38,176 nt of DNA from positions 1 to 38,176 of IMG/VR virus record IMGVR_UViG_3300006793_000096; one strand, given 5' to 3'. Source of the stretch: a virus. The position numbers were made by a program, and so were the translations under genes. This document shows positions 4,495-33,587 of the stretch, piece by piece (the first letter of the stretch is position 1; the number at the start of each line of letters is the position of its first letter). Below the pieces are notes generated by a model that saw only the letters and a list, made by a program, of their open reading frames with translations, was not told the origin of the DNA and ran no database searches.

Positions 4495-6356
4495 TGGCTA
4501 AAGATTTAAGAATCCGCCCAATCGGAAAGCCTAAGATTGAGGAAGATTCCCAATTAGGTTTTCAAAAACTAACCCGTAGATTTGCCGCCGAAGGAACTAA
4601 GGTAACTAAAGATGGGTTAGATGGAACTGACGACGGAATCGCCTTATTTAGAAGAGTAGGGGAGCCCGATGAGGAGTACCCAGACCACTACCTCGTTAAT
4701 CAACAAACCATACCCGGCGAGACATTGGACAGTTGTACTTTGGTAAGGCAGTATGCTCAACTCAGAGACTCTTGGTTTAGCCAACAGTCAAGTGAGTCAG
4801 GTGAACTTAAAAAGTTAACTAGGAAATACGTAGTTCTTAAAAACAGTAATCATATATTAAAGCAGTTAGGTAACCTTAAGAATCTAGGCTATGACTCCAG
4901 AGAGTGGTCGTTACACCCAGCTACCGGTAGTGGTTTACCTGATGGCGCTGAAGCGTTGGACGACGGTACGCCGGAGTCAAATGCAGACTGCTGGGATATG
5001 CTTCCCGAAATAATTAGAAGAACGGAACCTAAACTAGCTTCTTATGTTGACGGCGATGCGGCCGGCAATATACCAGACGAAGCGGGTCAGGCTTTAGTAA
5101 GCTTAGCCACCGTTTCTATTGCTTCTTATGTAGTATATCCGAGATCTATAACAATAGGTGCAGTGGACACCGTTACGAATAAAGCCACCGTTACTGTTGA
5201 AAGTGCAGCCCCTTGGAAGCTAGGTGGTCAAGTATTCAGCTCACAGGAGGGAAGAGCCGTACTAGACGACACTCAATTAATAGCAGAAGGAGAAACTTTT
5301 GTAGTACTAGGCGACCCGAGAGATGGCCAGGGAATTGACGACCCGGACACCCACCACGAATGTAATGAGGAAGTTTATACCGAACAAATTAATAAAGTAG
5401 GTGTAGGGGAGTCGATAGAATTAGATATTTCTAAAATAAAACCCGTGCAGCCTAATATGACTTCCGTAAATGCTCAAGGGGAAGACGGGTACATAGCTTA
5501 CGATTTAGAAGAAGAGGATAGACAATCCCATTTCATAGAAGACCTGGCGCTTACGGATCAGCAAATAAGTATTAGCTCTAATGAGCACGGTTATAATTTA
5601 CGCTGGCTAAGGGCTTCGGCAAGTGTAGACACCAGTAGTCCCGGTGTGGATATATGGACTTGCTCATGGGTTGCCCCTATCGGTTCATATTGGAAAATAC
5701 TATCGAGCACTGAAAAAAACGCCACACACCCTACAATAGTAGGCTTTGACCATACAGGTTTTAAAGCTTTTAAAAGAGGGAGTAAAAAACAGGGAGCTCC
5801 AGCGGTATTAACTTATTTTACCGTAGCGGAACAAGCCCCTTACTACGCCACTACTTACGCTAAAAACAGCGGAGCGGTAACTATGGACTTTTACATAGTA
5901 CTAGCGGAAGGAAGCTCTAAAAGTTTAACATTTAAACAAAGCTTTTCTAACGCGGCTTTTTATCAATCGGTTAACGGTACTCAACTTAGATTTCCTACGG
6001 AATTTATGAGGACAACGGGTGAACCGGATTTTATCGACGTAGCTTGTTTAAAAGGAGCAGGCTGTGGAGGTATCGCGGCCGCTCAGTATATTAATAGAAT
6101 GGGGGCAGGTGATGATGTAACTGTACCCGGAGGTAGTACGTTAGTTTTCTTTTACAATGACCCGTATGGCGACACAGACTGGAGGGAAAAACCATTATTT
6201 CAAGGAAGACCTATACAAAGTGCCGGAGGGCATATTTCATGGGACGCCACTATTTGGAATAATAAATTAACTAAAAGCCCTTCTTCTATGAAGGTAACTC
6301 CCCTTCACCACCATCACCGAAATAGAATTTGGAAAATTGAAGTAATATTTTTCTAA
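4494..6356 (+). CDS. Large virion structural protein, unknown
   Basis: 620 residues from the ATG at 4494, which overlaps the previous stop (TAATG). No family is recognised. Residues about 1-150 are charged and mixed. From about 200 onward the protein is rich in Val/Thr/Ser beta-type sequence (SYVVYPRSITIGAVDTVTNK), and near 530-600 it ends with aromatic-rich strands and a basic, His-containing tail (HHHHRNRIWKIEVIFF). The beta-rich composition and its position between a connector and the giant repeat protein favour a tail or baseplate-like structural role. It is joined to the next gene by a TAATG overlap at 6356. Confidence 0.65.
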   Translation: MAKDLRIRPIGKPKIEEDSQLGFQKLTRRFAAEGTKVTKDGLDGTDDGIALFRRVGEPDEEYPDHYLVNQQTIPGETLDSCTLVRQYAQLRDSWFSQQSSESGELKKLTRKYVVLKNSNHILKQLGNLKNLGYDSREWSLHPATGSGLPDGAEALDDGTPESNADCWDMLPEIIRRTEPKLASYVDGDAAGNIPDEAGQALVSLATVSIASYVVYPRSITIGAVDTVTNKATVTVESAAPWKLGGQVFSSQEGRAVLDDTQLIAEGETFVVLGDPRDGQGIDDPDTHHECNEEVYTEQINKVGVGESIELDISKIKPVQPNMTSVNAQGEDGYIAYDLEEEDRQSHFIEDLALTDQQISISSNEHGYNLRWLRASASVDTSSPGVDIWTCSWVAPIGSYWKILSSTEKNATHPTIVGFDHTGFKAFKRGSKKQGAPAVLTYFTVAEQAPYYATTYAKNSGAVTMDFYIVLAEGSSKSLTFKQSFSNAAFYQSVNGTQLRFPTEFMRTTGEPDFIDVACLKGAGCGGIAAAQYINRMGAGDDVTVPGGSTLVFFYNDPYGDTDWREKPLFQGRPIQSAGGHISWDATIWNNKLTKSPSSMKVTPLHHHHRNRIWKIEVIFF

Positions 6357-9300
6357 TGGACGAAGAAACCCCCGATCAATTAAAAGAACGCCTCATACAA
6401 TTAGAGGAAAGCGTTGAGGAGTTACTTAAAGGTAAAACCGATGAAGGTTTTGAAGGTACGCTTGAGGTAGTTCAAAGTGACGGCGGGCACCGCCAGACTA
6501 TTGTTCATTTCGTAGATGTCGAAAAATACCAGTTATCTAAGCCCCCGTCTAAAGAGATAGCTCACGCGTGTTTTACTAAAATTATAGAAGACGAGTGGGA
6601 TCCAGAAGAAAGGAAAATGGATCGGTTTATATCCCACGGAGATTTAGTAGTTATAGAAGGCGAGCCTTGTCTTTACTATTGCTATGTAGCTAAAGTAGAT
6701 AGAACCCCAGACAGCCCCGCGGGGTTTCAACAAGAGTCTAGCCTAGGTGGCGGGATAAAAAATAAAAACGAAAAGGACCAGACTAGACTAGAGCTTATAA
6801 TTTGGTCTGAAGTTTACCCAGGTGGAGGGGCTAATGTAGATGTTAAATTTTCAAGAACTTCACTCACACCGGGCAGTGAGTCGGAAAGTGGTATAACTGA
6901 TTTAATAATAACCCCCGACGACCCTCAGCCCGATAGTATAGATCTTAGTATACCAAAATTAGAAATCACACCAAGTGAAGAGGAGCCCGAACCGCTTGAA
7001 ACGACATTTCCTACAAAACTTTCTTTTAAAGAGGAAACCCCCGCAAGTTCAGACACCGGTGAGTGTGAGTTTTATACTCAAAAAATAACTACGAAAAACA
7101 CACCCGATGAACATTTTTACATTAAAACTTTTAAGATCACTCCTGACACTTCGACATTGTCCACTCTAAATTGGACGGCTTTTAATTTAACGGTTAAAAA
7201 AACCAATACTCAGGGTAGTCAAAAGCAGTTCCTTACAACCGGAGTTACATTGGAGCAACCGGCAAACGGCCCAGACAAAGATATATACGGAAGTAAGCCT
7301 TGGAAATACGACGGGACTTGGTCCGCTGTTAATGGACTAACTTCGAGAGTTTGGGATATAGAGGTACGAGATTCCTCGTCTTACTTAGATTGCGCTTACG
7401 CAAAGTATAAATCGAATCATATTAAAATAACAGATGGGGTTGAATCGACAACCCCCGATCAAATTGAAAGTAATACTTTAAATATTACCGATTTAACACC
7501 CACCTCGAGGGTTGCCAAAAAATCGTTTACTGTAAATAAACTTAAACTTACTGATGGGACTGAGCCGTCGCAGCCCGATATAATTGAGAGTAATACGTTA
7601 GATATAGAAGATGTAACCCCTTCGGGCACTGCCGATATAAATTATCAAACGAATAAAATAAAGCTCACCGATGCAACCGAAGACCCTAAAATTGAGGTTA
7701 AAAGTAGTGATTTAACTATTGCAGACGTAACTCCCTCCTCAAACACCCCCGACGTATTTAAGACAAATAAGATAAAGCTTACTGACGCGCCCGAAGACCC
7801 TAAAATCGAGGTTGAGAGTAATACTTTAGACCTTACAGATATAAATACAGTACCTTCGGATACCATTAGTATGTTCGATGGTTCCCATCGATGGATCGAC
7901 TCAGCCGATACTACCGACACCATGTACTACGGGGCGGCTAAAGCCGAACCTGTTGTGCCTAAAGGAACGCACAAGTTAGCTAAAGATTTAGATATCAGTC
8001 TTACATGCGAACAGGTGACTCCTGGTGACGCCGGAGCGACGTTAATAAATGTTAGTGAAATTACGGATTTAGATTTAAGTCAAAGCTCACCCGAGCCCGT
8101 AGATACTTTTACATACATAACTAATTTAGCTACTACGGTCACGGCCGGATCAGATACTACTAAGTACAACGAAAATACGAGCTTAATAACCGCATTTAGT
8201 AATGTAAATGGCACTGAAGATGATATAAATAATTCTACCGTTTTAAAAAAATTAGACGGTTGTTATATCGACCCAAAATCACCAAACGACGGCACTCCTT
8301 TTGATATATTAACCCAAGTTGGGACTAAAAGTACCATTCAAGAAAATAAATTTTCGGGGATAGTCTTTGAACAAAGCACGAGTTCTTGTAGCAATTGCCT
8401 AGTTCTAAACCCTAAGTCCCTAAAAATAGCCGAAAAAAAGCAGACATTTAAATCAAAAACGGCTACACCAAAGCTGCAAGAACATGATTTTTATGTAAAA
8501 AGCACTCCTGTAAAAATAACTACTTATGAGCGCGAAGATATCCTTAAGATAGAGCAGAAAAAGAAGAAGCTAAAAGTTTTAGAAAAAGTAAATCAATATG
8601 CGGTAGTCGCAAATAGAGAGACGCTAAAACTGGACAAAGTCGCCATTAATCTCAAAATTGATTCCACCATCCACGAGGTTAAAGAAATACTTATACGGCA
8701 AGTTTTCAAAGCCGACTGGAACGAGCTGGAGGTGAAAATTGAGGACCAAACCTTTAATTTTGACGGCAAAAAATTAGTAATCGTTCGAAGGAGGGGTGAG
8801 TTTTACGGGACTAAAAAGGATGCAACTTTTGATTTTGAAAAGTGGAAAGTTGAGCAAACAAAAAGGGTAGACGAGGTTTATAAAAAAACAGTTAAAGCAA
8901 ATGTTAGTTTTAATAAAACTATAACATTTTTAAAAAAGAATTTTACTATTGATGAGGTAAAAAGAGTAGATGAGATTTATAAAAAGACGGTTAACGCCGA
9001 AGTCAGTTACAATAAAACTCATCATATATCAAAAATAGTATGGGATGTTACACAAACAAAAAGGGAAGATAAGATCTTCAAGAAAACGGTTAACGCCGCT
9101 ATTTTAGATAATTATTCTCTTTCATTTGAGCGTAAACTTTGGAGATTTGCCCAAACAAAAAGAACTGACAAGATTTACGCAAAAACTGTTAATTTAGTAA
9201 CTACCGACGAAAAAACGATAGAAATAACTCCTTGGAATTTATACATAGTATGCTTATCCGAAGACAAACTTTTTTGGCAAGATAAAGAGAGTAGTTTTGG

Positions 9301-21921: not shown

Positions 21922-22227
21922 ATGGCTAATGTTTTACTAAAATGGGACGCTCTGCCGACCGATACCACCGATGTAGATGGTATCAGGGTATTTCGGACAC
22001 CGGACACCGGAACGGCGGCTACAAGCGATTCTTTTGTAACTGCGAGCGCAGCCCCAACTGACGCAATCCCAAGTACTTCAACTCAGTTGGCTGACATTAC
22101 GGGGATTACCGGTGTTCAGCATATTGATAAAGGTGTACCTACCGGTGACTATTACTACGCAGTATATAGTTACAACGACGCCGGATACAGCACCGCTAGT
22201 ATTACCTCGCTGGTACAAGTTTCTTAA
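21922..22227 (+). CDS. Stand-alone fibronectin-III-like protein B
   Basis: 101 residues, with the same plan as the preceding protein: MANVLLKWDALP, VDGIRVFRT, then GDYYYAVYSYNDAGYS near the end. It begins 4 nt after the previous stop and ends the plus-strand late module; its stop codon overlaps that of the convergent integrase gene. It shares clear identity with the 21570 product (MAN-LL-W, VD-I--FR, YYYA--S-N-AGYS), so this is a tandem gene duplication. Confidence 0.7.
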   Translation: MANVLLKWDALPTDTTDVDGIRVFRTPDTGTAATSDSFVTASAAPTDAIPSTSTQLADITGITGVQHIDKGVPTGDYYYAVYSYNDAGYSTASITSLVQVS

Positions 22228-23372
22228 GCCGCCCAACAAGCCAGCATGTTTTTGCTAGGCATCAATTTCGCATAGTATTGTGATGTAACCGAGGGGCTTG
22301 TGTGGCGCAAATAACTTTGGGCTACATAAAGCCCCTTTGTTGTAGCTAAATAAGATCCGTAAAGTTTTCTTAACTCATGCAGCGGGCTCTGCCTAGTCCA
22401 ACCGATATCTCTCAATGAGTCTGTTACTTTCTTAAAAGTTTTTTCAGCGATCCGAGCGCGGTCTGTTACTAGAAAATCAAAGCCTTCAGATGTGTCTAGT
22501 ATTTTAGAACCCCAGTTTACATCCCCAGCCGTGTAGCCATCGAGACCGTTTTTAGGCTTAAACTTACCTTCTGCGGCAATGCAAATAGAACAACGGTCTT
22601 CATCAATATCGAACCAGTTTCTTTTTGCAAAAAAAATCTCTTTCCGTCTCATACCAAAATGTAAGGCTAATGCCATAATCACAAATTGATCGCCGTCTAC
22701 TTCGTTCATTAACTTAAAAGTATCCTCAATCAAAGATGTCCCCGGTAGCGTGTAATCTTTTTTTACCCGATTAAAAAAGATCTCCTTTCGTAAAAAACCG
22801 AGACCTTCAAAACTCCAAGTCTCAGGGTAATAAGCCATAGCGGTCTCCGAAAAGACCGATTTAGCATTTCGAAGAAGAGTATTATAAGACCTTTTCTTTT
22901 CCTGCAAAGTCACTTTATCGGAGATTCCACGAACACTACCCGCTTTAACTTCGCGAAGCATTTTCTTAGTTAGTCTCTTCAACGGTAATGCTCTAGCCTC
23001 TTTATCTGGTAAACCTGTGACCCGGTATAAACCGCGCCTATAGCACTGAAATGTTCGATGCTCTATGCCTATCAAATTTTTATTAATTCTTAAAAAATCT
23101 ACTATGTCACCAAGGGTCGGTGATACTAGGACGCTGGTCTTAGGGGCGGCTTTCCCTTTCACTTTATTAGGGTTATATTTAAGAATAGTGTCTTCCATTG
23201 AGTTAAACACTAAGTAAGCATCTATCTCATCCGCCATTTTTTTGGCGATTGCTATCTCTTTTCCTAAATTAAAATAAACAGCCCTACCATCTACGGTCAC
23301 TTTAAATGACCAATGCTTAGCCCCTTTATTTCTTTTATAAACCCTGTTTCCTTTTTTTGTTATGTACTTCAT
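22224..23372 (-). CDS. int: Tyrosine recombinase (phage integrase)
   Basis: 382 residues. The N-terminal part has an arm-type DNA-binding look (KHWSFKVTVDGRAVYFNLG, about 20-38), then a SAM-like core-binding domain (about 95-190). Catalytic residues of the family are visible: Arg in ALHFGMRRKEIF (about 240), HELRK (about 330-335), LRHTSPSVTSQYY with the H-x-x-(S/T) His (about 357) and the nucleophile Tyr in SQYY (about 367). The start is supported by AAGGA 8 nt upstream of the ATG. The enzyme would integrate the phage at a host attachment site; a tRNA-Tyr-like sequence lies just upstream of its start. Its stop overlaps the convergent late gene with no terminator between them. Confidence 0.93.
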   Translation of the reverse strand: MKYITKKGNRVYKRNKGAKHWSFKVTVDGRAVYFNLGKEIAIAKKMADEIDAYLVFNSMEDTILKYNPNKVKGKAAPKTSVLVSPTLGDIVDFLRINKNLIGIEHRTFQCYRRGLYRVTGLPDKEARALPLKRLTKKMLREVKAGSVRGISDKVTLQEKKRSYNTLLRNAKSVFSETAMAYYPETWSFEGLGFLRKEIFFNRVKKDYTLPGTSLIEDTFKLMNEVDGDQFVIMALALHFGMRRKEIFFAKRNWFDIDEDRCSICIAAEGKFKPKNGLDGYTAGDVNWGSKILDTSEGFDFLVTDRARIAEKTFKKVTDSLRDIGWTRQSPLHELRKLYGSYLATTKGLYVAQSYLRHTSPSVTSQYYAKLMPSKNMLACWAA

Positions 23373-24165: not shown

Positions 24166-24562
24166 ACTTTTCATACATCCCTTTCGACTTAGGGTTGTGT
24201 CCGAAAACTGTAACGGAATTACTCGTTATTTTTCCAACTGGTATGAAGTACCATACATCGGGGCCGGGGGCGAATACACAAAGATATTGTACATTAGTGT
24301 CCCTTAAGTGGACTGAGTTGTTTTTACAAGTAGCTCTAACGGAAAATTTATAACTAGCTTTCGAAAACTCGGCTGTTCGGATCTGGACGATAATTGGTCT
24401 GCCCGACCTAGCGTTTATAACTATCATGTCAAAACACGGAGTCTCCCCCATAACTGAGCTACATGGGTACAAGCCCCTTCTTTGGGCTTCATAAGCGAAT
24501 AATAATTCCCCAGAAGTCCCCCTAAAAATATTAGTTTTTACTCCTTTCGAGAGATTATCCAC
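24107..24562 (-). CDS. PD-(D/E)XK nuclease-like protein (small, resolvase type)
   Basis: 151 residues from a GTG at 24562 that overlaps the primase-helicase stop by 25 nt. The arrangement fits the small PD-(D/E)XK nuclease class: GTSGELLFAYEAQRRGLYP (Glu about 19), CFDMIVINARSGRPIIVQIRTA with the catalytic Asp in FDMIV (about 45) and QIR in the place of the usual (E/Q)-x-K. The Arg instead of Lys is unusual and could mean reduced or lost catalysis. Members of this class cut DNA in recombination, repair or intron homing. It is the last gene of the minus-strand replication operon. Confidence 0.65.
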   Translation of the reverse strand: MDNLSKGVKTNIFRGTSGELLFAYEAQRRGLYPCSSVMGETPCFDMIVINARSGRPIIVQIRTAEFSKASYKFSVRATCKNNSVHLRDTNVQYLCVFAPGPDVWYFIPVGKITSNSVTVFGHNPKSKGMYEKFKENWNVFGSSLDGRGLLN

Positions 24563-26634
24563 CTATACACCCCCTTGGTAGAGTCTCGCTCTAACCATTT
24601 AAAACCTTTTGAAGCCATGTGCCTTAATCCCCAACCTAATTTTCTGGAATTTACATCGCGTAATAAAACTTCAACTCCCGACACTTTCGCAAGGTGTTTA
24701 AGGAGTTCAGAGCAAGTGCCCCGCCATTCAGTTCCTTTGTCTACTTGTGTGTCCCTAAAGATCTCCATTAACTCAATGATATGAGCGTAATTGCCGTCCG
24801 CTTGGGCTGCACTTTCTATACTAGAATCTAAGTAAGCTTTTACGCCAAATCGGTACTCTTTCATTTCATCCGGTATTTCGTGATTGTCTAACCAAGCGGC
24901 AAAATACGGTAACTCTTTTAATACCTTCCCTGCAAACAAGTCGTCAAAACCAGTAAAGGGGCTGCAATTAAAAACCATCAACTTGTCGCGGGTTGACATG
25001 TCGAGATCTGGTAACATCCGCATGGACATAGGGTCGTTGTTCAATGTAATGCTCATTCGACCTCTCCAATAAACCCTGCCTGATTTTTTAAATTTTGCAT
25101 TTACGACAAAGGTATCATTTGCCACGAATTCTTTTATCTTAGAAGAAAACTGAACATGAGACTCACCACTAGTTCCAGCTTCGTCATCTACCGTCCACAT
25201 ACCGCATTCAAATAAATGGTCGTTGAAATCGGTCTTACCTACGAGGTACTCGGAGCACTTCATATGACCTCCGAATAAAGCCCCGAGAATCTTCGTATTC
25301 CACATTGTCTTACCGCAATTCGGTGGGCCGACTAGAACATGGCAGTGGCCTTTCTGCGGAGTCCCTTTTAAAGCATTTTTGTATGCGTAGGAGAGCCAAG
25401 CTAACTCCCAAGGTAGTTGCTTTTCCCCAAACATATCCTCGGCCCACTTTGCTATAGTAGGGAATTTAACTCCCCATTTAGAGTTGTCCTCAATAGGTTT
25501 AATTGGCGTTATCCTAGCTGTATTAAAATAACGCTTACCTTCAAAGTGTACGATTCTGTTTTTATCAAAGCAAAACGGTACCGCTGATTCAACCCTCTTA
25601 GTCGTGTGGATCTGATGCAACGCTCGTTGAGCTTCTGATAAATTTTCGCGACGCCCTCTTTGATTAGATAAATTATGCCGTGCCTGTAGGTCTAAAAACG
25701 CTTCGTCTTTGCCAGCTATTATGAAACCGTTCGTATCGTCTTCTATTAAAAAATTCCTACCATCATACCAGTACTTATCAATGCACTCACCAATGCGACC
25801 CACCTCAAATTGAGAAACAAACCTAGTGCCTAAAATTTCCTTCCATGTATAAAAAGGTTTGTCCGCGCTAAAGCATTGCATTCCTTCTTGGCGAACAATA
25901 CACGCTGTAGGGTTCCAGTCTGAGTTAGCCCCCGGCCCCCAAAACCATATACCTCTTGAACCTTCTTGAAACGCACCGCTCCATAAGTTTGGAAACTGAC
26001 GCTGAACTTCCTCGGCAATTAAATCTAACGGAATTACGGCACCTCTTCCTTCAAAGTCTTCGGATCGGCTAGTCTCATATTGCCAAAAATGCAGGGTGTT
26101 AGATGGTATTTTTGTATCAGAAACCTTCTTCCACTCAGTCCCTAGATTATAATAGGTATGGGGGTTTGAGAAAGCGGGTTTGTCAAAACCGCGACAAAGT
26201 TTATCTAACTCAAGCTCCGCCGCTATTCTTTGCAACAGCCGTTTAGTAGCTTTGGAGCCATGAAGCATTATTGGTTTTTCAAACTCCCAAGTCGCGTGAA
26301 TCCCTTTAGAATAAGAACGTGATACCCAAGTACAAGGGAATTGAAGATCAATCATTCGCAGCATTACCTGGCGAAATTCTTTTTCATCTAGCTTTGCATC
26401 AAAATCAGCGGTAACTGAATGTAAGTAAAGAGGTGGGTTCTGAGAAGTGACCCGTTGATGTGGGTCGACACCCTCGCTCCCATTATACAATAAATACTTA
26501 GTCGTGGGGTAGGCTATATACTGCCGAAACTTAGCTTTACTCTCAAATTTAGGTAAAACTATGTTGGAATTCCAAGGCTCTTTTTCTTCAACAATTGATG
26601 CAGAAACATTGGGTATGCAAAGATACTTAGACAT
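24538..26634 (-). CDS. Primase-helicase: PrimPol (AEP) domain plus SF3/D5-like helicase
   Basis: 698 residues. N-terminal AEP-type primase signature: ADFDA (metal-binding DxD at 77-79) and SYSKGIHATW (S-x-G-x-H class, His113). C-terminal superfamily 3 helicase: Walker A GPPNCGKT (about 433-440), Walker B WTVDDEAG (about 475), and a motif C-like SITLNNDP (about 525) with downstream Arg. It primes and unwinds phage DNA for the family A polymerase encoded two genes upstream. It starts within the end of the dNMP kinase gene (8-nt overlap), showing a tight operon. The PrimPol-SF3 fusion differs from the TOPRIM-type primase-helicase of T7. Confidence 0.85.
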   Translation of the reverse strand: MSKYLCIPNVSASIVEEKEPWNSNIVLPKFESKAKFRQYIAYPTTKYLLYNGSEGVDPHQRVTSQNPPLYLHSVTADFDAKLDEKEFRQVMLRMIDLQFPCTWVSRSYSKGIHATWEFEKPIMLHGSKATKRLLQRIAAELELDKLCRGFDKPAFSNPHTYYNLGTEWKKVSDTKIPSNTLHFWQYETSRSEDFEGRGAVIPLDLIAEEVQRQFPNLWSGAFQEGSRGIWFWGPGANSDWNPTACIVRQEGMQCFSADKPFYTWKEILGTRFVSQFEVGRIGECIDKYWYDGRNFLIEDDTNGFIIAGKDEAFLDLQARHNLSNQRGRRENLSEAQRALHQIHTTKRVESAVPFCFDKNRIVHFEGKRYFNTARITPIKPIEDNSKWGVKFPTIAKWAEDMFGEKQLPWELAWLSYAYKNALKGTPQKGHCHVLVGPPNCGKTMWNTKILGALFGGHMKCSEYLVGKTDFNDHLFECGMWTVDDEAGTSGESHVQFSSKIKEFVANDTFVVNAKFKKSGRVYWRGRMSITLNNDPMSMRMLPDLDMSTRDKLMVFNCSPFTGFDDLFAGKVLKELPYFAAWLDNHEIPDEMKEYRFGVKAYLDSSIESAAQADGNYAHIIELMEIFRDTQVDKGTEWRGTCSELLKHLAKVSGVEVLLRDVNSRKLGWGLRHMASKGFKWLERDSTKGVYRWIISRKE

Positions 26635-27169
26635 GTAAACCTCCCAGCAAATTGGTTACTGCAAAATCTAAGTCGGACGAGTAGCAACTAACATTCTCAA
26701 GCTGCATAGTAATAAACTCCATCGCCACACCTCTTTCACTTATATGGCTGTCGCCGTCAAAAACATCGGGGCGGACTACCTCAATAACCACACCGCCCAG
26801 ATGTAATATGGCGCGCGCTTCGTTGTTAAACCGTATGTCGTCCACCACGATATCTTCAACACCACTTTCGAAAAGAGTTTCAATATCGTGTACAAGTTTA
26901 TCAACCCATATCGTGTTCGAAATCATAGCTCTCGCGAAATCCGTACCGAAAAGCTGCATAACCTGTCTTGCAGATTTATTACCGAACTCTTCAATGGGTA
27001 TTTCCTTTAAACCCGGAGTCTCCATATTCTCTATTGGGACTCCAAACTTTACTAAAGTCTCTTTTAAGGGCGTCGCTAGACTCCTAATAATATATCCGTG
27101 GTTGTCTCTTAATGAAGTTGCGGCACTTGTTTTCCCGCACCCTTTTTTACCTGTTAATCCTATAAGCAT
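26627..27169 (-). CDS. Deoxynucleoside monophosphate kinase
   Basis: 180 residues. P-loop GKKGCGKTS at the N-terminus (about 7-15). Then comes the dNMP-kinase pattern KSARQVMQLFGTDFAR (about 69-84), NTIWVDKL and VVDDIRFNNEA (about 108-118), as in T4 gene 1-type enzymes. It phosphorylates deoxynucleoside monophosphates to diphosphates and supplies dNTP precursors for phage DNA synthesis. An AAAGGA sequence 5-6 nt upstream of the ATG is a good ribosome binding site. It lies between the polymerase and primase-helicase genes in the same operon. Confidence 0.88.
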   Translation of the reverse strand: MLIGLTGKKGCGKTSAATSLRDNHGYIIRSLATPLKETLVKFGVPIENMETPGLKEIPIEEFGNKSARQVMQLFGTDFARAMISNTIWVDKLVHDIETLFESGVEDIVVDDIRFNNEARAILHLGGVVIEVVRPDVFDGDSHISERGVAMEFITMQLENVSCYSSDLDFAVTNLLGGLHV

Positions 27170-27194: not shown

Positions 27195-29123
27195 TTATTT
27201 TGTGTACATATCCATAATCACCGTTTCTGAATCTAACGGTGCATCACACCAAAGTGGTGGAGTTTTCATTATCTCCCTAATCTGTTTCTTGGCTTGCTGT
27301 GCCTTGTTTGAATCTACCTCGACCACAACTTCATCATGCACTTGCAGTATGATATCGTAACCGGCTTTATTAATTTCCAGCATATGCCCCCCAAATAAAT
27401 TTCGGGCATTCGCCTGAACTTCATTTTGAAAAATGTTAGCACCGTAATAACTTGATCTACGGGCTCCGCCTTTTTGTAACTTCGCGGTAGTCTTTTCCTT
27501 AGTAACTTGAATGTTCCAAAAGTTTATTTTTCTACCATTCATCAACTCGATAGACATATCCTGACCGTCATTTTTGTCTTTATACTCCGCGTCGTATTTT
27601 TTCCATCGGTCGACAATTAATGGATTTTTGTCACGGTAATCCATTACTTGGATGAACGCATTTACCCAGTGTTGCTTGGTAGTGGCGTCGGAAGCCTCAA
27701 ACCACTCGTGGTATTTCTTTTGGTAATTACTTAAAAAATTAGTAAACCTACGCTTATCCCCATGGGAGTACTCTCCTTCGAGAATGTGAAGCTGGCCGAA
27801 AGATCTGACGGTTTCATAAAATTTATACCAGCCGCAACCGTAGCCCAATTGCAACACACGGGTTTTAGCTAATAAATATAAATCGGGATCCTCGTCTTTA
27901 AGCTTTCCACCAGTCCAGCCCATAGTGTTTATCGCATGAGCTTCATAGGGATTATACCCATCGCGGACAAGATCAAGAGATTCTTCATCGCCTACGCACT
28001 TCCATATCAATCTAGCCTCAATTTGACTAAGATCGCTTACTATAAACACCTTACCTTTTGGAGCTTTAATGCAGTTACGGATATTAATCCCGTACTTAGT
28101 ATCACGAGGTAAATTCTGAACATTAAACCCCCCAGCTCCACTCCATCGGCCGGTGACTTCCGCACCAAAATACATAAGAGAGTAGGGCATCCGGCCTTCC
28201 TCATTGACACGGGATGCCATAGTTTTGAGCTTTTGCAAATGAGTATTCATTCGCTGGTAGTTCTGCATGTCGGCAACAAAAGTTAAGCTATCTTGATGCT
28301 CGGCTAACCACTTCTTCGCGTCGTCGTTGCCTTTGGCTAGAGATTTCGGAGGCTCGATCCCGCGACGACGACACTCTATTGCTAATGCTTTCTTTGAATA
28401 AACAACATAAGGCTTTCTTGTGTCCGGATCTATCTCGTTGTACCAAGGTAAAGCGTTTCGACACTCCCACATTTTTTTCTCAAGAGTGTCTATGGCGTCT
28501 TCTACCATTTCAATATCCACGGGCAACCCGCGAAGCCCCATCTTAATTGTTAAATCTTCCAGTTCTAATTCCTCTTTCGGAATTAACGGATACAGCTCAG
28601 TGAACAAACGCCACTCTAAGATTGCGTCCGTGATTGCGTACGCAATTACATCTTCCGCTTTCCCGTCTGCCTCTATGTCTTTCCAGGTTTTACCCTTCAT
28701 GTAGTCACGAACTTCTTTAGACATTTCCTCATCAAAAACTCCGCGCATCGCATCTGCTAACGACCTGCCTAATTGGAGATAGCAAGACATAGCAGAAGTG
28801 TCGTGCCATCCATTAATTTTTATGTCGGGCATCTTACCCATTTCAATGGCTCGCAGGGTCACCGGATGGTCGAAGCCTCGATTGTGAGCGATAGCGGTCT
28901 TACCCTCAACTATACTCCAGTCAAAATCCTCAGGCGGACCAGAATACCTTTGGTCTTCCTCGTCGCCCCAACAAAGAGCCACGAGATAAGGGTCAAATTT
29001 GTGGTGCTTACAATACTCTACCGCAGTTGTACCTTTTATTGTACAATCCGAATCGTAGTAAGTCTCCCAATCGATAACAAAAAATTTATCGCGCCAATCT
29101 TTTAAAGCTTTTCGTCTACTCAT
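27195..29123 (-). CDS. Family A DNA polymerase with 3'-5' exonuclease
   Basis: 642 residues. Exonuclease motifs: IDWET (Asp18, Glu20), AHNRGFD (Asn81, Asp85), YAITD (Tyr162, Asp166). Polymerase motif A is VSDLSQIEARL (about 360); motif B is LAKTRVLQLGYG (about 415); motif C is VHDEVVVEV (about 590). There is no 5' nuclease domain, as in T7-type replicative enzymes. In motif B the residue matching E. coli Pol I Phe762 is Leu, and the usual Arg four residues before the Lys is Tyr. It replicates phage DNA with the primase-helicase encoded downstream. The leader has no Shine-Dalgarno sequence, and a terminator hairpin sits 10-55 nt upstream. Confidence 0.93.
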   Translation of the reverse strand: MSRRKALKDWRDKFFVIDWETYYDSDCTIKGTTAVEYCKHHKFDPYLVALCWGDEEDQRYSGPPEDFDWSIVEGKTAIAHNRGFDHPVTLRAIEMGKMPDIKINGWHDTSAMSCYLQLGRSLADAMRGVFDEEMSKEVRDYMKGKTWKDIEADGKAEDVIAYAITDAILEWRLFTELYPLIPKEELELEDLTIKMGLRGLPVDIEMVEDAIDTLEKKMWECRNALPWYNEIDPDTRKPYVVYSKKALAIECRRRGIEPPKSLAKGNDDAKKWLAEHQDSLTFVADMQNYQRMNTHLQKLKTMASRVNEEGRMPYSLMYFGAEVTGRWSGAGGFNVQNLPRDTKYGINIRNCIKAPKGKVFIVSDLSQIEARLIWKCVGDEESLDLVRDGYNPYEAHAINTMGWTGGKLKDEDPDLYLLAKTRVLQLGYGCGWYKFYETVRSFGQLHILEGEYSHGDKRRFTNFLSNYQKKYHEWFEASDATTKQHWVNAFIQVMDYRDKNPLIVDRWKKYDAEYKDKNDGQDMSIELMNGRKINFWNIQVTKEKTTAKLQKGGARRSSYYGANIFQNEVQANARNLFGGHMLEINKAGYDIILQVHDEVVVEVDSNKAQQAKKQIREIMKTPPLWCDAPLDSETVIMDMYTK

Positions 29124-29204: not shown

Positions 29205-29873
29205 TTACATAAATTCACCAAGGAACGCTACGAAGTCGTCATCATTCAACCCCTTGCGTTTAAGTTGAGACACCCACCAAGAACCTTTTGAATTCTCAGC
29301 TTTCTTTGGTTCGAGAATAAACGAACCCTTTCGGATGTTGCCCTTAAGGTAGGTTGAATCGGCCGTAACTATAGGCTTAGCCGCAGTGTCGTAGGATGTA
29401 CCTTTAATCCTCCAGAGACAAAAGAGATAACGCTCACCCTTGAAATCATAAGGGAACTGAGCAGGGTCTGCATCTTTGCCTCCATGGACGCAAATCATAG
29501 TGTCCATGATTGCGTTGGCCGTTGGGCGTTGGTTGTCCGCCCACTTAAGAGAAAGACCAGCTTCCACTACTTCCTCTTCGGTATTAAAGAAGCGGGATGT
29601 TTCACCTGTCCCATAAGGGATGTACTCCACATACTGCTTCTTGTAAGAAAGAACCGTTATAATAGCCGGCTTTTCAACCTCGAACTCCGCGTCGACTACG
29701 AGCTGACCCTTTGGCCAATCTCCTAATGCTCCCGCACCTTGAGATAATTTAATCTCAGGCATGATAATGTCGTTTTGGTTGAAGTCACCTTCTGCGAAAG
29801 AAGATGTAGCCACCGCTACTGCGGTACTTTCTGATGTTTCAGTCGTTTCTGACTTTTTTGTTTTAGTTGCCAT
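29205..29873 (-). CDS. Probable phage ssDNA-binding protein
   Basis: 222 residues. The N-terminal 30 are Ser/Thr/Glu/Lys-rich and probably disordered. The body is beta-rich (GQLVVDAEFEVEKPAIITVL, RYLFCLWRIKGTSYD, about 55-165). The end is acidic with a terminal aromatic (NDDDFVAFLGEF), a layout reminiscent of phage and bacterial ssDNA-binding proteins whose acidic tip recruits replication partners. No signature motif proves it, so function is inferred from composition, length and position beside PolA. The gene has a terminator right after it and a distinctive CA-rich leader with four 8-nt repeats, which suggests high expression. Confidence 0.6.
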   Translation of the reverse strand: MATKTKKSETTETSESTAVAVATSSFAEGDFNQNDIIMPEIKLSQGAGALGDWPKGQLVVDAEFEVEKPAIITVLSYKKQYVEYIPYGTGETSRFFNTEEEVVEAGLSLKWADNQRPTANAIMDTMICVHGGKDADPAQFPYDFKGERYLFCLWRIKGTSYDTAAKPIVTADSTYLKGNIRKGSFILEPKKAENSKGSWWVSQLKRKGLNDDDFVAFLGEFM

Positions 29874-29881
29874 GTCGTTTT

Positions 29882-29913
29882 GTTGTTACGTTGTTACGTT
29901 GTTATGTTGTTTT
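29882..29913 (-). repeat. Four tandem 8-nt repeats in the leader of the SSB-like gene
   Basis: On the plus strand GTTGTTAC occurs twice, then GTTGTTAT and GTTGTTTT, with no gaps. As mRNA this is (RTAACAAC)-type repeats, unstructured and lacking a Shine-Dalgarno sequence, ending 8 nt before the ATG. An A/C-rich unfolded leader can help ribosome loading. Confidence 0.85.
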
Positions 29914-29961: not shown

Positions 29962-30819
29962 TTAATTCTTCTGCTTAGATAAGTAAGGAGTCCTAGAGTC
30001 TTCTTCTCCGTCCGCATCATCGGAAGGGATAGCTCCTCCTTTAAGTAAAGCTAACTCGATTGCGGCTCTTGCGTCTTTCTTCTGCCCTCGTGGCAGTTTA
30101 TTCCCGTAAACTTTTGCAAGTGCTGGAAGCGTGACCTTACAAGCCTCAGTAAATTCATCAGTGCTCAAGAGGCCGGAAACGGCATCGTATGCAACTTGTG
30201 GGTCGTTTATCTTAACAGTAGGAGAGCGGTATTTTAAATCAAAACCGGGAATCTCCCAACCCTCATCAGTTGCAAGCTCCAGAGCCCTAGCATTTACGGC
30301 ACTGACCCAACGATCCATGACCATACCCACAATTTTCATCTTTCCGATGGTCGCCGGATCGTCGATTAATGCCGGATCCATCTTGTCTAAAAGAGATACC
30401 TCGAACTCGTCCGCTTTTTCGGCGTACTTCTTTGCGATTGGCAAGAGCTTATCAGACAGGGCGGGGCATACTAAACGCTCCCCGCAGAAACGACACGCTT
30501 CGGTCGTAGGATTGTACTGCTTCTCCTCCGCGGTAGCTTTCTCAAGAATAAGCTTAATCCGCTCACGCAGACCCTCAATCTCCATCCTTGTGAAAGTATG
30601 AGTTAATACTTCACTGCGCCTTGGGCATACAAAGTATATTTCTACAATGTTCACCCATTCGTATTTCTGAATAAGACCGATAGCGTAGGCCAATGATTGC
30701 GGGTTGATGTCCGCCGGTTCGACGGCTAGGTATCCAAACTTGTAGTCTACAAGCCTAGCTAATTCCCTATCCTTGAACAGTATTATTTCGTCCGCCGTCC
30801 CAAATATTGAATGTGTCAC
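29962..30819 (-). CDS. RecB/Cas4-like Fe-S nuclease, C-terminal part
   Basis: 285 residues from a GTG at 30819; a TAA lies two codons upstream, so it cannot start earlier in frame. It holds the catalytic core of the PD-(D/E)XK family seen in DUF2800/Cas4/RecB-type nucleases: FGTADEII (Asp10), VDYKFG (Asp25, Lys27) and NPQSLAYAIGL (Gln41, Tyr45). Three cysteines follow, C109-x2-C112-x5-C118, matching the C-terminal trio of the AddB/Cas4 Fe-S cluster. The fourth Cys and the GxxxH motif are in the separate gene at 30970-31236. The two halves are in the same frame, 51 codons apart. The activity is expected to be DNA end processing in replication or recombination. Confidence 0.75.
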   Translation of the reverse strand: MTHSIFGTADEIILFKDRELARLVDYKFGYLAVEPADINPQSLAYAIGLIQKYEWVNIVEIYFVCPRRSEVLTHTFTRMEIEGLRERIKLILEKATAEEKQYNPTTEACRFCGERLVCPALSDKLLPIAKKYAEKADEFEVSLLDKMDPALIDDPATIGKMKIVGMVMDRWVSAVNARALELATDEGWEIPGFDLKYRSPTVKINDPQVAYDAVSGLLSTDEFTEACKVTLPALAKVYGNKLPRGQKKDARAAIELALLKGGAIPSDDADGEEDSRTPYLSKQKN

Positions 30820-30973
30820 AGAATTTTATAAAGTTAGAGTTACAGGTGAATGAAGCCACGGGGTAAAGAAACCCGTCGGTGCATTTAACTTGAGCGTATC
30901 CATTAGTCCACTGGACATACTTAACTTCCACATCTCCTCGGTTTCTTATTAATTGTAAGGGCCAAGTTTTCAT
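30767..30973 (-). CDS. Small ORF spanning the interruption of the nuclease
   Basis: 68 residues, starting with ATGA over the stop of the N-terminal nuclease half and ending 53 nt inside the C-terminal half. The product (KYVQWTNGYAQVKCTDGF, LYPVASFTCNSNF) reads like a real small beta-rich protein rather than random sequence, but no family is recognised. It is either a separate small protein inserted into the nuclease gene, or a coding segment joined to its neighbours by frameshifting. The tail after about residue 52 is just the nuclease gene read in another frame. Confidence 0.5.
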   Translation of the reverse strand: MKTWPLQLIRNRGDVEVKYVQWTNGYAQVKCTDGFLYPVASFTCNSNFIKFCDTFNIWDGGRNNTVQG

Positions 30974-31236
30974 CCTAAATCGATGTGAAGTTTAATTTCT
31001 TTGACGACCTCATCCGCACCCTCTCTCAAGGGGCGGACTTCATCTAAAACCTTATTCACAAGGTAAAGCTGGTCGTCGGTTAATCCTTCGAAGTTCTCAG
31101 TCTCGACGGCGTGGTGAAGCATTGTGCCTTCCTCAGCCGCGGGATTAGTTTCTCCGGAATTCCTAAAGCTCGGGCAGATCTCAAGATACTTGAGAGTGCT
31201 CGGACCGAACTTATGGTGATCAATCGGAGTCGCCAT
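30970..31236 (-). CDS. RecB/Cas4-like Fe-S nuclease, N-terminal part
   Basis: 88 residues. KFGPSTLKYLEICPSF supplies the first Fe-S cysteine (Cys21), and EEGTMLHHAVE contains the GxxxH motif (Gly37, His41) of AddB/Cas4-type nucleases. It ends at EIKLHIDLG, just where a family member would continue into (F)GTAD of the second half at 30819. The stop TGA therefore cuts one domain in two, so activity would require association of both fragments, ribosomal readthrough or bypass, or else the nuclease is dead. It starts within the end of the 31220-31525 gene (17-nt overlap). Confidence 0.72.
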   Translation of the reverse strand: MATPIDHHKFGPSTLKYLEICPSFRNSGETNPAAEEGTMLHHAVETENFEGLTDDQLYLVNKVLDEVRPLREGADEVVKEIKLHIDLG

Positions 31237-31525
31237 TCTGAATGTCGGCTACCTGGTCGATAAGAGCGGCTAACTGGATCTTTATAAAAGACAGCTCCAT
31301 GATGAAGGGCATTAGCACAACCCCAAGGTCATCTTGCTCTTGCCCCTCTTTTTTCAACTGCTCGACAACCGAGAGAGATGATTGCTCTAAACTCTTAGCA
31401 AGCTCCGCCGCATTGGCCGAAACAATCTCAAGCATTGGCTCGGGAAGATCCGGGACATTCTTAAGGGATTTAAATACATTCGACTCTTCATTAGAGTCGG
31501 CACTGAAGTCGGTGTTTATTCTCAT
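31220..31525 (-). CDS. Small acidic protein of unknown function
   Basis: 101 residues, acidic, mostly helical. PEPMLEIVSANAAELAKSLEQ and SVVEQLKKEGQEQDD suggest two helices, followed by a hydrophobic helix MPFIMELSFIKIQLAALIDQV (about 73-93), which is probably a dimerisation coiled coil rather than a membrane span because it has charged neighbours and Gln/Glu. The gene overlaps the split nuclease gene and may encode a partner of it. No family is recognised. Confidence 0.6.
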   Translation of the reverse strand: MRINTDFSADSNEESNVFKSLKNVPDLPEPMLEIVSANAAELAKSLEQSSLSVVEQLKKEGQEQDDLGVVLMPFIMELSFIKIQLAALIDQVADIQNGDSD

Positions 31526-31622: not shown

Positions 31623-31644
31623 AAAAAAATATAACAATGTTATA
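31623..31644 (-). terminator. Palindrome plus U-run after the SNF2-like helicase gene
   Basis: TATAACA/TGTTATA arms (31630-31636, 31638-31644) overlap the helicase stop codon. On the minus strand they are followed by seven T (31629-31623), the shape of a weak terminator. The AT-only stem and very tight loop make an operator role possible instead. Confidence 0.45.
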
Positions 31645-32992
31645 CAAAAATTGGGTTAAGTTCGTCATCATTTATTAAATCTAGGTGGGCTAACTTCTTC
31701 TTTATCAACGCACAGACTCGCATTTCAACGCTTCCAGCGGCAAAAATTATTTTTTGTATCGCGGGGCTCTTCGAACCTGCTCGGTGAATCCGTCCAAGAG
31801 TTTGTCTCAAGTCAACGGCACTAAATCCGGGGCTAATAAGAGACACCCTTGGATGACCCCCTAGCTCGTCGTGTAAATTAATTCCAACCCCTCCGGCTTG
31901 GATCATACAGATAATTATTTTAGCGTCGTTGTGTTGGAACTTAGCTATGTTTAAATCCCTAACAGCGTCACTCTGACCACCCTCTACAATAGCCACTGGG
32001 CCTGCGGACATAAGTCGTTGGGCGATGGCCTCAAGGGTGTCTTTAAAGTTTACAAATATAGCAACGCTCGAACCTTCTGCTAAAGCATCCTCGGCCAGCT
32101 CTACAAAAGTAGGAACTTTTAACAGCTCAACCTCCTGACGGGCACGAAGCTGAACTATCAGAGGCGTGTCCTCGTGCTCACCTTCTTCTACCTTAGCTTT
32201 AAAAGATTCTAGCTCATCCTCCATGTTGACATAAATAGAATCTATATCGCCGTCCAGTAGGTAGCCGTCGGGTATTATTAGATTATCGGGGAATGCTCCT
32301 TCGGGTAAATCTGATATTCTGATTCTTGAACCACGGCCATCTTCATAGATATGTTTATGAAAGCGCTTAAGCGTAGGCCCGGGGTTTGAGAACTCCAAGG
32401 AGAAGCGGCCTTTCTTACACCCGTTCTTTTGGCACCAATTCCACCAATCCTTACCCTCATGCATATCGAGGGCGTAACCCATCGCTCGCATTTCGAGAGG
32501 ATTAGAGCAACTAGTAGCACCAAGAAGAAGTATCTTAAACCCCAGGGCCTTCGCGCTGATTAAGATCTTCGAATTAAGGCTCTTGTGGCCCTTCATCCTG
32601 TGATCTTCGTCAAATATTATTAAGTAATCTTTAGGCTCAAGACCTTTCCAGCGAAAGAATCCTTTCTTCGGGATCCAACCGTAGTCAGTCTTGCCAGCCT
32701 TAAGCTTTTCGTAATTAATTACGTGGTCTGTGTCGTTACCAAAAGCGCTCATCCACTGAACCCACGCCGGTATTACTGCCTTAGGGCATACTATGAATGG
32801 TTTTAAACCAACCCTAGCCGCCACCTCTAAAGCAATAATAGTCTTTCCCGTGCCTGTGTCGGAACCGTCTTTCGCGAAACCGTGCTTTTTGACTGATTTA
32901 ACAAGCGTATCGCAGTGATCCTCCTGCCATTCATAAAGATCGGGGGCTAAGTCGGAACTATTGCCTGATTTATCAAGCGGATTGGTACTCAT
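31640..32992 (-). CDS. SNF2/DEAD-like superfamily 2 helicase
   Basis: 450 residues. Motif I is SDTGTGKT (44-51), motif Ia-like IVCPKAVIPAWVQW (67-80), motif II DEDH (128-131) with FDEDHRMKG, motif V-like GGVGINLH, and motif VI QTLGRIHRAGS (about 395-405), the pattern of short SNF2-type phage translocases. Such proteins are ATP-driven DNA translocases or helicases used in replication restart or recombination in many aquatic phages. The start overlaps the stop of the sigma4-like gene (ATGA). A hairpin with a U-run lies at its end. Confidence 0.85.
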   Translation of the reverse strand: MSTNPLDKSGNSSDLAPDLYEWQEDHCDTLVKSVKKHGFAKDGSDTGTGKTIIALEVAARVGLKPFIVCPKAVIPAWVQWMSAFGNDTDHVINYEKLKAGKTDYGWIPKKGFFRWKGLEPKDYLIIFDEDHRMKGHKSLNSKILISAKALGFKILLLGATSCSNPLEMRAMGYALDMHEGKDWWNWCQKNGCKKGRFSLEFSNPGPTLKRFHKHIYEDGRGSRIRISDLPEGAFPDNLIIPDGYLLDGDIDSIYVNMEDELESFKAKVEEGEHEDTPLIVQLRARQEVELLKVPTFVELAEDALAEGSSVAIFVNFKDTLEAIAQRLMSAGPVAIVEGGQSDAVRDLNIAKFQHNDAKIIICMIQAGGVGINLHDELGGHPRVSLISPGFSAVDLRQTLGRIHRAGSKSPAIQKIIFAAGSVEMRVCALIKKKLAHLDLINDDELNPIFV

Positions 32993-33165
32993 CTTTGGAA
33001 TTCCTCTATGTCTAAATTATCATCCTTAACTATTTGAGTAAGCAATCGGCGAAGCCTCATTAGACCCTTCTCCTCAATCTGACGGATACGCTCGCGGCTA
33101 ACCCCAACAAAATCAGCTATCTCCTGCAAAGTATGGGGCTTGCCGGGCTCGCATGTCTCAGCCAT
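32989..33165 (-). CDS. Minimal sigma-region-4-like HTH protein
   Basis: 58 residues from the ATG at 33165, which lies one base after the stop of the zinc-ribbon gene. A longer in-frame reading to 33423 exists but is only the zinc-ribbon gene read out of frame. The sequence TLQEIADFVGVSRERIRQIE (12-31) followed by EKGLMRLRR is a near-textbook region 4.2 of sigma-70 factors, which contacts the -35 element. No region 2 or 3 is present, so it cannot act alone as a complete sigma. It may bind -35 elements or core polymerase as an activator, anti-sigma or DNA-binding regulator of phage promoters. Confidence 0.72.
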   Translation of the reverse strand: MAETCEPGKPHTLQEIADFVGVSRERIRQIEEKGLMRLRRLLTQIVKDDNLDIEEFQR

Positions 33166-33166
33166 C

Positions 33167-33439
33167 TCACGCAATTTGAAATCCACTAGCGTCAATTTGC
33201 TCTTTAACAGCGTGGGAGATTGAAGACTGATCGAGTCCAAGGGCACGTTCAAAGACTTGGTTTTTTTGTCTGAGCGTTTTGTTTTCGAGCAAGATATTGT
33301 GGATGAATTCCCCATTAACCTCTTTGGTCGAGAACCTAAAGCCGCAAGTAGGACAGCTACGGCGTCTTCTCCAACTATGTCCCCCCGCTGCACGGCTGTC
33401 GATAACTTGGGTTTTGCCATCACACTTTGGGCACTCCAC
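33167..33439 (-). CDS. NrdR-type zinc-ribbon protein
   Basis: 90 residues from a GTG at 33439, chosen because AGGAGG lies 6 nt upstream and the product then opens with (M)ECPKCDG as NrdR does. The four Cys (ECPKC and SCPTC) and the DSR...WRRRRSC...FRFST context match the N-terminal zinc ribbon of NrdR, which binds DNA at ribonucleotide reductase promoters. The ATP-cone domain of NrdR is missing; instead a coiled-coil-like helix follows (ILLENKTLRQKNQVFERAL). It may be a phage-specific regulator or DNA-binding adaptor working with the sigma4-like protein encoded next to it. Confidence 0.72.
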   Translation of the reverse strand: MECPKCDGKTQVIDSRAAGGHSWRRRRSCPTCGFRFSTKEVNGEFIHNILLENKTLRQKNQVFERALGLDQSSISHAVKEQIDASGFQIA

Positions 33440-33587
33440 GAGCGACCTCCTCTTGGTTGTCGTTACAAAGATAGCACGGACCATGCCCGGGCTCAGGACA
33501 GCTATGCGAATCTACCTGGCAATTTAAACCTTGGCAACCAGTCATCGCGGAAACTGCTATTAATATTATTATTTTTGTCGTTAACAT
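33420..33587 (-). CDS. Small lipoprotein-like peptide
   Basis: 55 residues from the ATG at 33587. The N-terminus MLTTKIIILIAVSAMTGC is a short lysine-containing signal followed by a lipobox-like AMTGC, then a Cys-rich mature part (QVDSHSCPEPGHGPCYLC). Phage lipoproteins of this size include Rz1-like spanins and superinfection-exclusion proteins; neither is proven. It overlaps the zinc-ribbon gene by 20 nt. The start is uncertain: GAGGGG touches the ATG, and an in-frame TTG lies six codons upstream. Confidence 0.42.
   Translation of the reverse strand: MLTTKIIILIAVSAMTGCQGLNCQVDSHSCPEPGHGPCYLCNDNQEEVARGVPKV

Follow-up and report, generated by a model that had tools for sequence, protein, structure and literature searches.

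A DUF2800-type phage nuclease encoded in two pieces around a conserved small gene

Gene organization of the locus

The window analysed here, that is, the whole stretch of DNA under study, is a complete IMG/VR virus record of 38,176 bases. The genes around the split nuclease, given in the order in which the minus strand is read, are the following:

31640-32992, minus strand: SF2 helicase (Helicase_C, 2e-8; phrog_62, 8.8e-37), in the same operon as the nuclease
31220-31525, minus strand: small gene upstream of the N-half, 101 aa (ORF call), with a 17-nt overlap with the N-half start
30970-31236, minus strand: N-half of the split nuclease, 88 aa, with GPSTLKYLEICP carrying the Fe-S cysteine Cys21, and EEGTMLHH (GxxxH, His41)
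30767-30973, minus strand: gene S, nested, 68 aa, beginning with ATGA on the N-half stop
29962-30819, minus strand: C-half of the split nuclease, 285 aa, GTG start, with FGTAD, DYK, QSLAY (QxxxY) and C-x2-C-x5-C
29205-29873, minus strand: gene in the gp2.5 position of the module (ssDNA-binding/annealing type), downstream of the C-half
27195-29123, minus strand: family A DNA polymerase (DNA_pol_A, 4.4e-19)
26627-27169, minus strand: dNMP kinase
24538-26634, minus strand: DUF5906 protein

This gene order is that of the duf2800-gp2.5-polA module described in phages (PMC8093625). The product of 29205-29873 has no match in Pfam, so that a gp2.5-type function is assigned to it by position only; the gene is kept beside the C-half in relatives. 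For the product of 31220-31525 a homologue was found in two related contigs, L003 and L004 (47%), and no family match was obtained. The two ORFs, their 51-codon same-frame offset and the ATGA-started ORF at 30767-30973, from which a previous sequence-only reading of this DNA had started, are all present.

Some other features of the window were recorded. An NrdR-type zinc-ribbon ORF (33167-33484, minus strand; 1.7e-12) shares a 257-nt out-of-frame overlap with a sigma-70 region 4 ORF (32989-33423, minus strand; 2.1e-11), the real start of which may be later than listed. Two tandem repeats lie within ORFs: TGATCC, near-perfect and repeated 12 times, at 15516-15587 (ORF 13741-16434), and an imperfect 120-nt unit in 2.6 copies at 10466-10776 (ORF 6356-11680). 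The leader directly upstream of the gp2.5-position gene (29882-29911) holds 8-nt AAC-rich repeats (GTAACAAC, coding strand), and a weak tyrosine-integrase match (22224-23372, minus strand; E 0.0011, below the Pfam cut-off) is found beside a strand switch.

The two halves make up one nuclease domain

The C-half matches DUF2800 (PF10926, E 2.5e-18) and the PHROG exonuclease family phrog_69 (2.2e-25); the window's N-half on its own gave no significant family match in Pfam or PHROGs. That one nuclease domain is shared between the two genes, as had been proposed from the sequence, is borne out by a naturally whole homologue, L011, which aligns to the N-half and then to the C-half. The N-half covers L011 residues 1-87, and between the parts aligned to either half L011 has just a short turn, REDGSS. 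This alignment also places the break where it had been expected, with the N-half ending after strand beta1 (EIKLHIDLG), at L011 residues 87-92.

The structure was modelled with AlphaFold2 on the joined L011 protein, which stands in for the separate halves of the window. The model has a mean pLDDT of 83.6, with 93-97 across most of the core, and shows strands at residues 76-86 and 93-104 with a short turn between them, in which the break site (87-92) lies. Reading this strand-turn-strand as a hairpin, the break is predicted to fall in the turn of the beta1-beta2 hairpin. The best fold matches of the model in the PDB are AdnAB, the Cas4 protein SSO0001, RecE, ACE1 and MGME1.

In 31 of 31 split members, the N-half has Cys21, Gly37, His41 and Glu80, and the C-half has F6, G7, D10, D25, K27, Q41, Y45, C109, C112 and C118. 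Over the two halves taken together, GxxxH, the aspartate of GTAD, DxK and QxxxY are thus invariant (31/31), and the four-cysteine site is made up of Cys21 of the N-half, ahead of GxxxH, and Cys109, Cys112 and Cys118 of the C-half, which form C-x2-C-x5-C. The catalytic and cysteine residues are also the same, where aligned, in the joined homologues and in a second split clade described below. Values of dN/dS were 0.03-0.20 for the N-half and 0.01-0.14 for the C-half (finite pairs), which points to strong purifying selection on both. In place of a nuclease domain on a single polypeptide, the window has two ORFs with their own starts; these are two parts of one DUF2800 RecB/Cas4-like phage exonuclease of the PD-(D/E)XK type with four cysteines and, judged by sequence, jointly hold every residue required for one working enzyme.

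The split is conserved among metagenomic viruses

Searches by C-half or DNA similarity gave no close relatives. With the helicase as bait, 11 relatives were recovered, ten with separate N- and C-halves and one, L011, with one continuous ORF; an alignment of the C-half then extended the set to 80 loci. The order N-half, S, C-half is found in 37 IMG/VR contigs and in one MAG contig (L102, from a Rickettsiales MAG), with C-half identities of 43-75%. One further contig, L021, has the split without S, which brings the split relatives to about 39 (38 IMG/VR contigs and the MAG), all relatives of the split clade being metagenomic sequences. In L021 (2515-3658) the N- and C-halves overlap directly; on this short contig the arrangement may be a split that lacks S, or may stem from a sequencing error of one base. 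A joined nuclease occurs in one contig of the window's clade (L011, which is also L049 and L103). The annotated phage records that were inspected (L014-L018, L104-L106) have the whole nuclease in a single gene. A further candidate split, in MW202897, was rejected, since the start is mis-annotated and the gene whole.

The record is metagenome-derived and a split gene is the usual appearance of an error, which is what a sequencing or assembly chimera, or a decaying pseudogene, would look like. However, the split is carried by some 40 independent contigs from different metagenomes, with different sequences and gap lengths, and all parts have dN/dS well below 1; the chance of such an artefact, which the sequence-only reading had kept among its options, is negligible. 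On this comparative evidence we take the split to be real and conserved, far beyond chance.

The same distribution bears on whether the halves could serve unrelated functions as individual proteins, without ever reassembling. Their separate translation would fit this; each half by itself, however, has an incomplete active site and an incomplete cysteine set, both of which, taken over the two halves, are invariant in 31/31 members. Nor were homologues found in which the parts are always separate with different partners: they are always adjacent, and in L011 they are naturally fused. We consider this explanation highly improbable.

Reading frames and translation signals of the interruption

The interruption had been described as a frame-preserving gap of 153 nt. 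This did not hold beyond the window and L003/L004, to which the 51-codon same-frame relation is confined; elsewhere the C-half lies in another frame than the N-half, and gap lengths vary. In the window and L003/L004 the step from the N-half to S is -1 and that from S to the C-half is +1, and because the two steps cancel, the halves fall in the same frame. The N-to-S step is +1 in the other lineages and the S-to-C step is +1 in most members, L055 departing from the pattern. The same-frame 153 nt is best taken, from these alignments, as a chance feature of the small lineage to which the window belongs.

The N-half and S overlap by 4, 8, 11 or 14 nt in most members, the ATG of the C-half overlaps the stop of S by 8 nt in 16 of 31, and GGAGG or GAGG stands 6 nt ahead of that ATG in 13 of the 31. 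Such overlaps and Shine-Dalgarno sequences are commonly seen where neighbouring genes are translated either in a coupled manner or independently. The window is a less clear case, since its C-half starts with a GTG within S that has no Shine-Dalgarno sequence. The differing frames, together with start codons of their own that often have a Shine-Dalgarno sequence, argue against an assembly error, an in-frame insert and ribosomal bypassing.

Were the gap skipped, whether by bypassing, by frameshifting through S or by RNA splicing, one full-length nuclease would result. In T4 gene 60 bypassing, GGA is the last codon ahead of the stop, and the window resembles it in having GGA before the N-half stop and both halves in one frame; the +1 step in most members would likewise suit frameshifting from S into the C-half. 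However, the N-to-S step depends on the lineage and L055 falls outside the S-to-C pattern, so that the frame relations vary among relatives, and many members have C-halves with their own start codons and Shine-Dalgarno sequences. There are no conserved take-off or landing codons: the GGA is not conserved (L003 ends ...ACA TGA), and the window has no in-frame GGA landing codon ahead of FGTAD. The interruption folds worse than its shuffles (z +1.4), which leaves no stable structure, and no Rfam family of group I or group II introns was detected in the gap, even at E<=5. Gap skipping is, in our assessment, very unlikely.

The nested gene S is a conserved small-protein gene

The ORF in the third frame, which had been seen as what fills the gap, is indeed there, but it is a conserved gene and not filler. 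When the window's lineage was left out of the profile, S still ranked first among the 580 stop-to-stop ORFs of the window (E 4.8e-4; next 2.5), and a two-sequence profile (window and L003) matched the remaining S proteins with an HHalign probability of 83.6%; homology of S over the deepest lineages is suggested by a significant but modest signal. S is present in every split relative except L021, and a search of nine complete S-split records found it exactly once in each, at the split. It was sought in the joined and second-clade records, including the whole 54-kb record of L011, and none was found. For the part of S that does not overlap its neighbours, dN/dS is 0.1-0.5 (finite pairs; 0.21 for the window versus L003), and S evolves faster than both nuclease halves.

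The S protein gave no match in Pfam, PHROGs or PADLOC, none to the phage records, and no HNH, GIY-YIG or other family match. AlphaFold2 predicts four strands and a helix for the S homologue of L043 (pLDDT 91-94 over residues 21-70); searches with this fold gave nothing significant in the PDB or among viral folds, the weak matches being Sm/SH3/Tudor-like proteins in the PDB (E above 0.1) and a best viral E of 0.03. Taken together, conservation and modelling indicate that S is a real gene of a new small-protein family, with a predicted fold of beta-sheet plus helix.

Instead of being an independent passenger, S might be a third subunit that the split enzyme cannot do without, clamping or completing it. 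Its single occurrence at the split in the nine whole records, its absence from the joined L011 record, the purifying selection on it and its translation between the halves are all in keeping with such a role. Against it stand the split without S in L021 (a short contig, with maybe a frameshift error), the filling of the second-clade gap by unrelated, interchangeable genes and the faster evolution of S compared with the halves; moreover, its loss with re-fusion may have been a single deletion. We regard a subunit role as possible, though rather doubtful.

Origin and history of the split

A tree of 49 rows places the joined L011 inside the split clade, where it forms a group with 27 split rows (100/99) that leaves out the window and the L010/L012 lineages. 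A tree uniting all S rows was rejected (p 0.00035; AU p 0.01 without the long-branched L021). This placement suggests that L011 re-fused from a split ancestor. One split followed by one re-fusion is the simplest reading, since three separate insertions of homologous S at one site would otherwise be required; it rests on one contig, and a second joined member like L011 was sought and not found.

A second viral clade (L057-L062, L071, L073, L077; e.g., L057:4612-4941 and L071:3928-4941) split the same domain independently, slightly upstream. Its N-half is the tail of the helicase ORF and its C-half begins upstream of beta1 (MTTIVKDLREIRVKIDLG...FGTCD). Between them stand one to four small genes of coiled-coil, HTH, Cys-rich and other types, and close relatives differ in their set. 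The break points differ between the two clades, and a single origin of all splits was rejected (p 6e-5). The small genes of the second clade are joined mostly by 4-nt ATGA/GTGA overlaps.

The sister group of the second clade (L063-L070, L072) has the helicase and the whole nuclease in one ORF, and this fusion suggests the helicase as the partner of the nuclease. These helicase-DUF2800 ORFs (e.g., L063:3345-5816) are of about 820 codons and resemble a single-chain AddAB/AdnAB.

Discussion

Taking into consideration the conserved split, the invariant residues, the selection and the natural joined homologue, all of which are observed, we hold it very probable that the locus encodes a two-chain Fe-S nuclease assembled in trans, with a small gene nested between its parts. 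This combines two options of the sequence-only reading, the two-subunit nuclease, with translation probably coupled, and the small gene in the domain, and drops bypassing and the chimera. In an ancestor of this phage group, a single-chain DUF2800 gene would have been split in the beta1-beta2 turn, with S standing between the parts since. The three ORFs would now form one operon segment for a heteromeric RecB/Cas4-type Fe-S exonuclease and a small accessory protein, the N-half, S and C-half being translated separately off one mRNA, possibly with the termination-reinitiation coupling that the overlapping stops and starts suggest. We infer that the two half-proteins then combine in trans, with the GxxxH histidine and one Fe-S cysteine coming from the N-half and the catalytic aspartate, DxK, QxxxY and three cysteines from the C-half; with the residues so divided, neither active site nor cluster would be complete until the two chains associate. 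Working with the adjoining helicase, the enzyme probably resects DNA ends, and may thereby feed the gp2.5-position protein in replication and recombination.

Beyond this, the beta1-beta2 region, with at least two splits, could be a tolerated niche for nested genes in phage replication operons, and S, in one clade, could have turned into a dedicated third subunit controlling or clamping a nuclease whose two chains assemble across its Fe-S cluster, activity needing all three proteins; we offer this as speculation and think it unlikely.

Phage enzymes encoded by genes in pieces are known: NrdA of Aeromonas phage Aeh1 (split by mobE), the T4 topoisomerase 39/60 (mobA) and the 43A/43B polymerase, the halves of NrdA and of 43A/43B having been shown to function together (PMC2988022). 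The closest precedent is the mobE-split NrdA of Aeh1. As in these cases, a small gene breaks up a phage gene for DNA metabolism within a critical domain, with stop and start overlapping. Unlike in them, S has no homing-endonuclease match, the enzyme is a predicted Fe-S PD-(D/E)XK nuclease, and the split is fixed across a deep clade, arose twice and was apparently undone in one member.

With the DUF2800 phage exonuclease (PF10926; PMC8093625) the window shares family, motifs and operon position, but the annotated phage members examined are single genes, whereas the window has two genes and S. The joined L011 matches AdnA-AdnB and SSO0001 Cas4, and also RecE, in fold, and the one-plus-three arrangement of cysteines is like that of the Fe-S members; in AdnAB, AddAB and Cas4, however, the nuclease domain is one chain, and here Cys21 is on a separate polypeptide from the other three. 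The arrangement of split nuclease and S had no match in the literature searched, which is not proof of its being undescribed.

Naturally split enzymes are usually single oddities attributed to a homing endonuclease. The nuclease described here was split twice at neighbouring points, was kept in pieces over a deep viral clade and was apparently rejoined once, and its Fe-S cluster and active site would span two chains. Since the N-half alone escapes the family profiles tried, such enzymes are probably under-annotated. S adds a new conserved small-protein family, and the breaks suggest natural break points for split nucleases. The split and joined relatives constitute natural before/after pairs that bear on why phages retain genes in pieces.
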